Origin: Paracoccaceae bacterium
GTDB lineage: Bacteria > Pseudomonadota > Alphaproteobacteria > Rhodobacterales > Rhodobacteraceae
DNA: 64,000 nt
Direction of reading: 5' to 3'
NCBI GenBank assembly: GCA_020628545.1
Contig: JAHDEX010000007.1
Location: forward strand, 39,375 to 103,374
The translations under genes and the position numbers were made by a program. Positions 38,311 through 42,792 of this stretch are shown in pieces. Position 1 is the stretch's first letter, and the number at the start of each line of letters is the position of its first letter. The notes beneath the pieces are model-generated. The model was not told where the DNA came from. It searched no databases and saw only the letters and a program-made list of their open reading frames with translations.

Positions 38311-38696
38311 AATCGTCTTCCCTGGTTTACGCACGTAACCTGCAGCAACCCCCCGGCCGCACACCTGTGCAAATACAATCGGCTCCCGTTTTACCCGCCG
38401 ACTTTTGTTTGAAATGTGGCGAACATCGCAAAAACCGTGCACAAATCGCTCGGATTGCAGCTTGATTTTTCTAAAAATGAATAAAAACAAAACGTTAACG
38501 TGTGCCACAAGTGTGTCATAAATGCTGAAAGTGTCCTTGTCGGCGGATATCCACTTTTCGGGCTTGGAAACGGTCTTTCGGGGCTTGGCGGATTGTTCAC
38601 GCAGGTGCAGGAATCTCGACTTCGGATGAGAGAATCACCGCCGATGAGTCACATGCGGATTGGCTCGACTCTGCCGGTCACAGACACGATAATGCC
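38311..38696. other. Divergent intergenic region between tad-like unit and dnaG
   Basis: A 386-base gap. The tad-proximal half is AT-rich with a palindrome ACGTTAACGT (38492-38501). The dnaG-proximal part contains four GANTC sites, described separately. I see no open reading frame with a ribosome site; the track ORFs here (38122-38412, 38500-38700) lack family features. Confidence 0.55.
38611..38671. promoter_or_regulatory. Cluster of four GANTC (CcrM) methylation sites upstream of dnaG
   Basis: GAATC at 38611, GAATC at 38632, GAGTC at 38646 and GACTC at 38667 lie within 61 bases, ending 25 bases before the dnaG ATG. GANTC is the sequence methylated by the cell-cycle enzyme CcrM in Alphaproteobacteria. 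The flanks differ between sites, so the shared feature is GANTC itself. Regulation by methylation is an inference. Confidence 0.5.
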
Positions 38697-40652
38697 ATGA
38701 TGAGTTTGCCACCGGGATTTTTGGATGAATTGCGCACGCGTCTGTCGCTCGGACAGGTCGTTGGACGCAAGGTGATGTGGGATCCGCGCAAATCGAACCA
38801 AGGGAAGGGCGACCTTTGGGCACCGTGTCCGTTCCATCAGGAGAAGACTGCAAGCTTCCATGTCGATGATCGTAAAGGGTTTTATTACTGCTTCGGCTGC
38901 CACGCCAAAGGCGACGCAATCAACTTTGTGATCGAAACCGAAAATGTGTCCTTTATAGAAGCCGTGAAAATTTTGGCGGATGAAGCGGGCATGCCGATGC
39001 CTGAACGCGATCCGCGCGCTCAGGAAAAAGCTGATCTGCGCAGCGAACTGACCGACGTGATGGAGCAGGCGGTGCAGTGGCACAAGCTTCAGCTGAAAAC
39101 CGCTGCCGCGGGGCCTGCGCGCGACTACTTGGAAACGCGCGGATTATCGCCGGACGCCATTGCGCGGTGGGAAATTGGCTTTGCCCCGGAACGCGGTGGT
39201 GTGATGGCGCAACTGACGGGAAAAGGTGTCGCGCAAGAGAAGGTGATTGCCGCCGGGCTCGCCGCCGAAAGTGATCGTGGCGGATCTCCCTATGACCGGT
39301 TTCGCAACCGGATCATGTTCCCGATCCGCGATGGGCGCGGCAAGGCGATAGGCTTTGGTGGGCGCGCGATGGATCCGAACCATCCCGCCAAATACTACAA
39401 TTCGCCTGAAACGCCGCTCTTCGATAAAGGGCGATCACTCTATAACCACGCGCCCGCGCGTGAGGCGGCAGGCAAAGGCCAGCCACTGATCGTCGCGGAA
39501 GGTTATATGGACGTGATCGCGCTGTCCGAGGCGGGGTTTCAGGCGACGGTTGCACCGCTGGGGACCGCGATTACAGAAGATCAGCTGCGGCTTTTGTGGC
39601 GGATCTCGCCCGAGCCGATCATCGCATTGGATGGCGATACGGCAGGACTGCGAGCGGCGATGCGGATGATCGATATTGCGCTGCCACTGCTTGAAGCCGG
39701 TCAATCACTGCGCTTTGCCCTGATGCCGGAGGGGCTGGACCCCGATGACCTGATCAAGCAGCAAGGCAGGCAGGCGATGCAGGGCCTCATCGATGCGGCC
39801 ATTCCGATGGTGCAATTGCTTTGGCAGCGGGAAACTGACGGGAAAGTTTTTGACAGCCCGGAACGGAAAGCGGCGTTGGACAAGGCGTTGCGCGACAAAA
39901 TCAAACTGATCAAAGATCCATCGATCCGTAGCCACTATGGTCAAGCGATCAAGGACATGCGGTGGGAGTTGTTCCGCGCCCGCAAACCTAACCCCGCGCA
40001 AACACAAAAGCGCCAAACACGCGGTGGCCCAGCAACGTGGCGGCAATCGAAGGCGCCGCTGGCCAGTAACAAGTCGTCCATGCTGGGGGCAGGGGCCGCG
40101 AAAACTGACCACATGCTCGAAAGTGCAATCCTCGCGACGTTGATTGCGACGCCAGCGGTTGTGGACGCGTTTGAAGTGCAGATCGATCAGATGGACTGTC
40201 AGGACCCCGATCATGCCGTGTTGCGCGATGCGGTCCTGCGGTTGTCGGGCGCACAAGATATTCGTGAGGCTTTGAATAAAAGTGTCGGAATCGCGCCACT
40301 TGAAAACCTCATGGCGCAACCTCATGTGAAAATCCATCCGGCGGTGCGCCGTGCCGGAGATCTCGAATTCGCGACAGCCTGCCTGACCACTGACTTCAAA
40401 CGCCTTTTTGCGCAACGAAGCTATGGCAAGGAACTGGACGAAGGCATGGACGAGTTGCAGGGCCAGGCTGACGAAAGCCTGACTTGGCGGCTCGCTCAGG
40501 CGGCGCGGATGATGGATACATCGGTGCGTGAGGCGCAGGATGAGACGACAGACTTTGAAAAAGCCGACAACGGCACCATGTTAAACAAAGAAGAGAAGTC
40601 AGCCTTTGATCAGCTTCTTGAGACGATCAAGGCAGGCAAGCCGACAAAGTAG
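38697..40652 (+). CDS. dnaG: DNA primase
   Basis: Synthesises RNA primers at the replication fork. The 651-residue protein has a CHC2 zinc ribbon (Cys44, His47, Cys65, Cys68 in APCPFHQEKTASF and YYCFGCHAKGD), the RNA-polymerase core with RFRNRIMFPIRD and GFGGRAM, the TOPRIM acidic motifs EGYMDVIAL and ALDGDTAGLRA, and a helicase-binding C-terminus. ATG 38697 is followed at once by a second ATG. It precedes rpoD by 163 bases, as in the macromolecular-synthesis operon, but rpsU is absent. Confidence 0.96.
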   Translation: MMSLPPGFLDELRTRLSLGQVVGRKVMWDPRKSNQGKGDLWAPCPFHQEKTASFHVDDRKGFYYCFGCHAKGDAINFVIETENVSFIEAVKILADEAGMPMPERDPRAQEKADLRSELTDVMEQAVQWHKLQLKTAAAGPARDYLETRGLSPDAIARWEIGFAPERGGVMAQLTGKGVAQEKVIAAGLAAESDRGGSPYDRFRNRIMFPIRDGRGKAIGFGGRAMDPNHPAKYYNSPETPLFDKGRSLYNHAPAREAAGKGQPLIVAEGYMDVIALSEAGFQATVAPLGTAITEDQLRLLWRISPEPIIALDGDTAGLRAAMRMIDIALPLLEAGQSLRFALMPEGLDPDDLIKQQGRQAMQGLIDAAIPMVQLLWQRETDGKVFDSPERKAALDKALRDKIKLIKDPSIRSHYGQAIKDMRWELFRARKPNPAQTQKRQTRGGPATWRQSKAPLASNKSSMLGAGAAKTDHMLESAILATLIATPAVVDAFEVQIDQMDCQDPDHAVLRDAVLRLSGAQDIREALNKSVGIAPLENLMAQPHVKIHPAVRRAGDLEFATACLTTDFKRLFAQRSYGKELDEGMDELQGQADESLTWRLAQAARMMDTSVREAQDETTDFEKADNGTMLNKEEKSAFDQLLETIKAGKPTK

Positions 40653-40718
40653 CAGTTTGGACAACAGTCCAGCGCACAGGAAGCAACAGAGACGTTTAAT
40701 CGCAGGTGATGTGCTTGC

Positions 40719-40768
40719 GAATCAGCTGATTCCCAAGTTGATTCGTTCAAAACCGAATCATGCGAATC
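40719..40768. promoter_or_regulatory. Cluster of five GANTC sites / GAATCA half-sites upstream of rpoD
   Basis: GAATC at 40719, GATTC at 40728, GATTC at 40740, GAATC at 40755 and GAATC at 40764 occupy 50 bases, ending 47 bases before the rpoD start. Each site belongs to the hexamer GAATCA or its complement TGATTC. They form a perfect palindrome GAATCAGCTGATTC (40719-40732) and an inverted repeat TGATTCG-N8-CGAATCA (40739-40760). Either CcrM methylation control or a dedicated operator could explain them. Confidence 0.55.
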
Positions 40769-40815
40769 ACCACTGAGGGCTGAACGCCCACGACCCCCGC
40801 GAAGGAGCGACGTGA

Positions 40816-42792
40816 ATGGCCGCCAAGGATACCAACGATCAGAAGGATCGCGATCAGGAGGACGGCACACTGGACATGAGCCAGGCCGCCGTCAAAAAGA
40901 TGATCGCCGATGCGCGCGAACGTGGATACATCACTTACGACCAACTGAACGCGGTACTGCCGCCTGATCAGGTCTCGTCTGACCAAATCGAAGACGTGAT
41001 GTCGATGTTGTCCGAGATGGGCATTCAGGTCACCGAAGACGAGGAAAGCGAAGAGGCCGAACAGGGCTCGCGCGAGGTTGCGACCGTTGCTGGCAACCGT
41101 GAAGTTGCCCTTGGTGGGGCAGAGCAGGAAAAGCTCGACCGCACGGATGACCCGGTCCGCATGTACTTGCGGGAGATGGGCAGCGTAGAACTGCTGTCCC
41201 GCGAAGGCGAGATTGCGATTGCGAAACGCATTGAGGCTGGCCGCAACACGATGATCCTCGGGCTGTGTGAAAGCCCGCTGACCTTCCAGGCGATTACGAT
41301 CTGGCGCGACGAACTTCTCAACGAAGACATTCTACTGCGCGACGTGATCGACCTTGAGACCACCTTCGGCAATCAGATGGGTGAAGACGGCGTGGAAGAG
41401 GTCGCTGTTGTGTCCCCCGGTGCGGGACCGGCCAAGTCTGAGGGTGAGCAGGCTGAAGAACTCGACGCTGACGGCAATCCGATTGTCAAAGACGACGATG
41501 ACGATGACGACGATCAGGCCAACATGTCGCTGGCCGCGATGGAAGCCGCGCTGAAGCCGCGCGTGCTTGAGACGCTTGAGATCATCGCACGCGACTTTGC
41601 CACGCTGTCTGACATGCAAGATGCGCGGATGTCGGCGACGCTGAACGAAGACAGCTCTTTCTCTTCCAAGGAAGAAGACAAGTATCAGGCACTGCGGGCC
41701 GAGATTGTGGAGTTGGTGAATTCACTTCACCTACATAACAACCGGATCGAAGCGCTGATCGACCAGCTTTATGGCATCAACCGCCGGATCATGCAGATAG
41801 ACAGCGCGATGGTGAAGCTGGCGGACCAGGCGCGGATCAACCGCCGTGAGTTTATCGATGCTTACCGTGGACGTGAATTGGACCCGAACTGGCTTGAAGA
41901 AATGAGCCAGAAGTCGGGTCGTGGCTGGCAGATGCTGATCGAACGCTCCACCGACAAGATCGAAGGTCTGCGCGGTGATATGGCGCAGGTTGGACAGTAT
42001 GTCGGCGTCGACATCCCCGAATTCCGCCGCATCGTACAGCAGGTGCAAAAAGGTGAGAAAGAAGCCCGGCAGGCCAAGAAAGAAATGGTCGAGGCGAACC
42101 TGCGCCTCGTGATTTCGATTGCGAAAAAGTACACGAACCGCGGCCTGCAATTCCTTGATCTTATTCAGGAAGGGAACATCGGCCTCATGAAGGCCGTGGA
42201 TAAATTCGAATACCGCCGCGGCTATAAATTCTCCACCTACGCGACATGGTGGATCCGTCAGGCGATCACCCGCTCCATTGCTGATCAGGCCCGCACGATC
42301 CGGATCCCGGTCCATATGATCGAAACGATCAACAAGCTGGTCCGCACTGGTCGCCAGATGCTGCACGAGATTGGCCGGGAGCCGACACCAGAGGAACTTG
42401 CAGAGAAACTGCAGATGCCTTTGGAAAAGGTCCGCAAGGTGATGAAGATCGCCAAGGAACCGATTTCGCTGGAGACGCCGATTGGCGACGAGGAGGACTC
42501 ACAGCTCGGCGATTTCATCGAGGACAAGAACGCGATCTTGCCTTTGGACAGCGCCATTCAGGAGAACCTGAAAGAGACGACGACCCGCGTGCTGGCATCG
42601 CTCACGCCGCGTGAGGAACGTGTCCTGCGGATGCGTTTCGGTATCGGCATGAACACCGACCACACGTTGGAAGAAGTGGGGCAGCAGTTCAGCGTGACGC
42701 GTGAGCGTATTCGTCAGATCGAAGCGAAAGCGCTGCGCAAGCTCAAGCACCCAAGCCGGTCGCGGAAGCTGCGATCGTTCCTGGATCAGTGA
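40816..42792 (+). CDS. rpoD: RNA polymerase primary sigma factor (sigma 70)
   Basis: Housekeeping sigma factor. The 658-residue protein has region 1.1 (about 15-75), region 1.2 ([11 protein letters not shown]), a long non-conserved region with an acidic run of aspartates (about 221-230), region 2 ([18 protein letters not shown]), region 3 and region 4.2 ([20 protein letters not shown]). ATG 40816 follows GAAGGAG. Its stop overlaps the next gene by four bases. Confidence 0.97.

Follow-up and report, generated by a model that had tools for sequence, protein, structure and literature searches.

The closest described systems are the promoters of Caulobacter crescentus that are governed by GcrA together with the methylase CcrM. 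GcrA has been characterised as an activator of sigma that promotes formation of the open complex (PMC7403470), and its binding as well as its activation are reported to depend on CcrM methylation. The mipZ, podJ, ctrA P1 and tipF promoters of C. crescentus carry GANTC sites near −35 to +7 in the form YGAKTCG, which according to PMC7987155 is the extended motif of methylated promoters that GcrA activates; for the GcrA of Brevundimonas, the same paper reports that no preference for an extended motif was found. In the literature searched, GcrA targets outside the Caulobacterales have been predicted for ccrM, ftsZ and others. As to the Rhodobacterales, PMC8116508 states that ctrA promoters often lack GANTC, 45% having one, and concludes from this scarcity that the timing of expression by methylation may be of little importance in the order. 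RbpA, Crl and GrgA resemble GcrA in that they act through sigma domain 2 and help open complex formation, but GcrA alone reads methylated DNA sequence-specifically. A loop in which one of these four cofactors acts back onto the sigma gene was not found in the literature searched. Within the same literature rpoD is not named as a GcrA target, Caulobacter included, and an unremarked listing in supplementary tables is possible.

The locus described here, the spacer between dnaG and rpoD of a marine Paracoccaceae bacterium, shares with the Caulobacter promoters the placement of GANTC near −35 to +7 and the YGAKTCG form, and the genome encodes a GcrA with a nearly identical DNA-binding domain and a CcrM orthologue. 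It differs in the number of motifs, with three to five in a fixed register instead of the usual one or two, and in its target, rpoD, which encodes the very sigma factor with which GcrA associates. Unlike the ctrA promoters of the Rhodobacterales, often devoid of GANTC, this array sits at rpoD, and it is absent at rpoD of the other alphaproteobacterial families sampled.

The GANTC cluster upstream of rpoD and its conservation

Five GANTC sites fall within 100 bp upstream of rpoD (Table 1), each enclosed by the hexamer GAATCA/TGATTC; across the window, meaning the whole stretch of 64,000 nucleotides analysed, GAATCA occurs 11 times, five of them here. The sequence-only reading had described these sites and their common hexamer correctly, and the two symmetries it pointed out are present as well, a perfect 14-bp palindrome, GAATCAGCTGATTC (40719–40732), and a spaced inverted repeat, TGATTCG-N8-CGAATCA (40739–40760). 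The window shows a strong depletion of GANTC, with 67 observed vs 287 in shuffles, and at the genome density of ≈ 0.97/kb, obtained from 463 kb of sequence, the expected number of clusters of five GANTC in 50 bp is 0.0006 per genome. When the 4.34-Mb assembly was searched by pattern, it yielded roughly ten other places with at least three GANTC at gaps of at most 30 bp, dnaG among them; a cluster of five exists only at rpoD and is the densest of its kind genome-wide, in line with the earlier remark that the sites are denser here than at dnaG. The arrangement TGATTCG-N(0-30)-CGAATCA occurs at two places in the 4.34 Mb, one of them being rpoD.

The second such repeat (G000:C87:53603-53632, L142) lies ≈ 90 bp upstream of the gene for a probable secreted protein of 216 aa, which adjoins a folC-like gene. 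Among the densest clusters found away from rpoD ranks G000:C64:12388-12439 (L144, L145), where a gene resembling BCCT-type transporters is preceded by four GANTC within 52 bp.

Sites A, C and D on the one hand and site B on the other represent a single heptamer on the two strands, and four of the five GANTC upstream of rpoD fit YGAKTCG, the exception being the site at 40728 with its sequence TGATTCC. For comparison, rpoD upstream regions were taken from genus, family and named GTDB genomes, the latter including Loktanella, Yoonia, Limimaricola, Ruegeria, Sulfitobacter, Paracoccus and Rhodovulum; the family footprint set comprised 126 distinct 160-bp dnaG–rpoD spacers from relatives, which are not independent samples. 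These spacers hold 507 GANTC, 90% of them of the form YGAKTCG and 73% TGATTCG, and the middle base is T in 98%. The corresponding background values are 11% and 3% in this genome (448 GANTC, 463 kb), and 15% and 5% in the relatives' loci outside the spacer. The density of TGATTCG amounts to 16.5/kb in the relatives' spacers vs 0.06/kb elsewhere in the loci; in total, 458 YGAKTCG were observed in the 126 spacers, vs a shuffle mean of 9.5 and a maximum of 17. At least three YGAKTCG are present in 118 of the 126, a count to be read with the relatedness of the genomes in mind.

The columns between the sites in the family spacer alignment are mostly of low information, and selection therefore acts on the sites and not on general sequence identity. 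Ninety-four genomes, counted before removal of duplicates, show the A-21-B register, with GAATC and GATTC exactly 21 bp apart. Where site C is present, it mostly follows B at a spacing of 13–15 bp (13–16 bp over the set), and site D usually lies 9 bp past C. The GANTC at the 40728 position occurs in 3 of the 94 genomes, this one included; the 14-bp palindrome, to which the sequence-only reading had attached weight, is thus nearly private to the species, and the conserved unit consists of the four sites A to D without the 40728 site. Site number, orientation and several spacings differ between clades, sites having been gained and lost. Footprinting of the dnaG–rpoD spacers had been proposed as a check, with loss of the repeats even in close relatives, together with the lack of a bound protein or methylation mark, named as counter-evidence; the sites turned out to be kept family-wide.

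Predicted promoter anatomy

The hexamers TTGCGA and TTGATT are spaced by 17 bp, and site A overlaps the first and site B the second (Table 1). TTGATT matches the −10 consensus weakly, its second base not being the customary A, and the column conservation of the family reveals an A-rich block that precedes the predicted start by ≈ 50 bp. In Caulobacter RpoD promoters the distance from TTG to the start is 34–37 nt, according to PMC4287350. The AAAA block is placed as the predicted start because it lies 34–37 nt from the 5′ base of TTGCGA, and site A would then rest on the −35 element, site B on the −10 element, and sites C and D at the very beginning of the transcript. At ctrA P1, the GcrA footprint is reported to cover the −35 region and to extend again from ≈ +5, the zones which sites A and C occupy at rpoD. 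Neither a consensus σ70 promoter nor a terminator-like site was found in the dnaG–rpoD spacer, and the absence of the former is to be expected if an activator is needed. On the grounds of spacing and conservation, we infer a promoter over sites A and B. The rpoD spacers of Ruegeria, Sulfitobacter and their relatives (L087 and L097, for instance) share another conserved element just upstream of site A, GGTAAA...GGTAAACGGGTGGCC.

Table 1. Features of the dnaG–rpoD locus, numbered from the first base of the window.
Feature	Position	Strand	Basis
dnaG, DNA primase, upstream neighbour	38697..40652	+	ORF call, Pfam DnaG domains
dnaG–rpoD intergenic spacer holding the array	40653..40815	+	ORF calls; Pfam DnaG, sigma70 domains
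Predicted −35, TTGCGA, overlapping site A	40715..40720	+	TTGCGA in 58/94 A-21-B relatives; column conservation
Site A, CGAATCA (YGAKTCG on minus strand)	40719..40723	.	conserved, 21 bp upstream of B
Extra GANTC, TGATTCC, completing the 14-bp palindrome; not YGAKTCG	40728..40732	.	3/94 genomes
Predicted −10 region, TTGATT, overlapping site B, 17 bp past −35	40738..40743	+	spacing, column conservation
Site B, TGATTCG (YGAKTCG on plus strand)	40740..40744	.	conserved flanking bases, T (0.99) and G (0.93)
Predicted transcription start, AAAA	40749..40752	+	inferred from distance to TTGCGA; conserved A-rich columns
Site C, CGAATCA, initially transcribed region	40755..40759	.	in 79/94 A-21-B genomes
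Site D, CGAATCA	40764..40768	.	in 35/94 A-21-B genomes
rpoD, housekeeping σ70, regions 1.1, 1.2, NCR, 2, 3, 4	40816..42792	+	ORF call, Pfam domains

GcrA and CcrM as candidate regulators

One GcrA is encoded in the genome (PF07750, E = 4e-48 in a profile search); over residues 1–45 it is all but identical to the crystallised DNA-binding domain from Caulobacter (alignment to 5yiu), and the sigma-binding domain matches too (alignment to 5yix). There is also one CcrM, which carries the RAMA domain and matches the Caulobacter enzyme 6pbd over its full length (E = 4e-164). Because the conserved sites equal the reported extended motif of GcrA, the regulator that recognises GAATCA at this promoter is most likely GcrA. 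The sequence-only reading had set CcrM methylation control against an operator for some unknown regulator of GAATCA, allowing that both might apply; the evidence favours the combination, and the regulator need not be an unfamiliar one, the motif being that of GcrA. The promoter region of ccrM itself (L181) contains two GANTC, GAATCG and GACTCA, in agreement with the published predictions of ccrM as a GcrA target.

GcrA was found in all 263 good family genomes, and a RAMA-domain CcrM was not detected in eight of them (G054, G069, G099, G143, G150, G242, G250, G268). Six of these natural knock-outs could be scored, on rows with long tree branches: four (G054, G069, G250, G268) have no YGAKTCG upstream of rpoD, and two (G242, G150) keep three each. 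The observed/expected ratio of GANTC in the loci is 0.94 in the CcrM-less genomes (seven, taken as a group) vs 0.40 in the others (p = 5e-5), and in view of this relaxed avoidance most of the CcrM losses look real. With four losses and two retentions, the evidence leans towards a dependence of the array on CcrM; support for a strict dependence is partial, as G242 and G150 retain three motifs without a detectable CcrM. Their retention may mean that CcrM is not strictly needed, that another methylase takes its place, that the loss is recent, or that the gene lies in an assembly gap. The array is also absent in the early-branching, CcrM-bearing genomes G057, G235 and the 82%-complete G048, as well as in G308.

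We consider it likely that the five GANTC belong to an array of GcrA sites which CcrM methylates and which overlies the predicted rpoD promoter. Counting against this reading are the two CcrM-less genomes with retained motifs, the result for Brevundimonas, the absence of rpoD from the Caulobacter targets in the literature searched, the array-free rpoD upstream regions of the other families sampled and the atypical −10 hexamer. From what is observed here, namely the sites, their exact motif, the conservation and register across the family, and the genes for GcrA and CcrM, we infer methylation of the array, binding of GcrA, activation rather than repression, and the timing. CcrM would methylate the GANTC adenines of the array; GcrA would bind methylated YGAKTCG with its N-terminal domain and region 2 of σ70 with its C-terminal domain, and may in this way bring the σ70 holoenzyme to an otherwise weak rpoD promoter and aid its opening. 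Because rpoD encodes σ70, a feedback loop would arise in which σ70 and its methylation-dependent cofactor drive the σ70 gene. After replication the array would be hemimethylated until CcrM acts, which could tie the output of rpoD to the cell cycle. With a conserved array of GcrA form at rpoD, the basic transcription capacity of the cell is thus probably coupled to methylation and replication. The conserved array suggests that GcrA/CcrM control has been rewired onto the housekeeping sigma factor in this family, and a short fragment common to more than 100 species offers a direct test bed for methylation-dependent feedback on σ70 supply.

The position of the sites on the −35 element, the −10 element and the first transcribed bases would also suit a GcrA that limits rpoD: when fully methylated, the promoter would be covered by GcrA from −35 to ≈ +18 and the polymerase blocked, and hemimethylation after passage of the fork would release a pulse of rpoD transcription. 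Along these lines, when ctrA P1 is fully methylated its stretch from −35 to +7 is protected by GcrA, which according to the authors may interfere with the polymerase (PMC3667746), and hemimethylated ctrA P1 is active (PMC8116508). The extended motif is, however, the one reported for activated promoters (PMC7987155), and the description of GcrA as an activator of sigma that stimulates open complex formation (PMC7403470) points the same way, such that we regard a limiting role as unlikely. Less probable again is a repressor or activator of TGATTCG half-sites that acts independently of methylation and for which the overlap with GANTC is incidental. It would account for conservation beyond GANTC and for the two CcrM-less genomes that keep the motif, but site number, orientation and several spacings vary by clade, unlike those of a dimeric operator, the perfect palindrome is not conserved, and the motif is identical to that published for GcrA and is lost in most of the CcrM-less genomes tested. 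A fixed palindromic or dimeric operator of a helix-turn-helix regulator was rejected, the B-to-C spacing varying about 13–16 bp and the palindrome being private.

The overlap of GANTC with the predicted −35 and −10 regions could further mean that CcrM methylation on its own alters the promoter, via the polymerase or the shape of the DNA, without a dedicated reader. Such an effect would accept any GANTC, yet at the family sites the middle base and both flanking bases hardly vary (98% T, 90% YGAKTCG), and we find this very improbable. The probability of a functionless cluster produced by chance or base composition is negligible in view of its expected frequency per genome, and nothing was found in its favour; it is refuted by the family footprint, in which the sites are kept across the family while the flanking sequence has diverged.

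Range, origin and the dnaG upstream region

The rpoD upstream regions of 68 alphaproteobacteria from other families, 200 bp each and with the start codon approximate for 40 of the 68, contain 19 GANTC, among them one YGAKTCG, and TGATTCG was not found in any of them. In the RpoD tree, which was drawn at midpoint, with unsettled bootstrap values and several long branches, the array-less rows beside the outgroups are early branches of the family, and nearly all other family rows possess the array. Read with the outgroups as root, the tree fits an origin of the array by one gain inside the family. The comprehensive proposal that σ70 of the Rhodobacteraceae is under epigenetic autocontrol via GcrA and a CcrM-methylated array, that transcription capacity as a whole is in this manner coupled to replication and DNA methylation, and that this control arose once in the family and is absent at other alphaproteobacterial rpoD genes, is put forward tentatively, with a confidence that falls somewhat short of even.

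The upstream region of dnaG (38611–38671) contains four GANTC, none of the form YGAKTCG, and the relatives average fewer than one per 200 bp. The parallel that had been drawn between the two adjacent genes did not hold up on this account, and dnaG was dismissed as a twin of the rpoD array, its cluster being neither conserved nor of GcrA form. Many relatives share a GACTC ≈ 30 bp ahead of the dnaG start, as part of the promoter-like sequence GGACTCTG ... GATATT.
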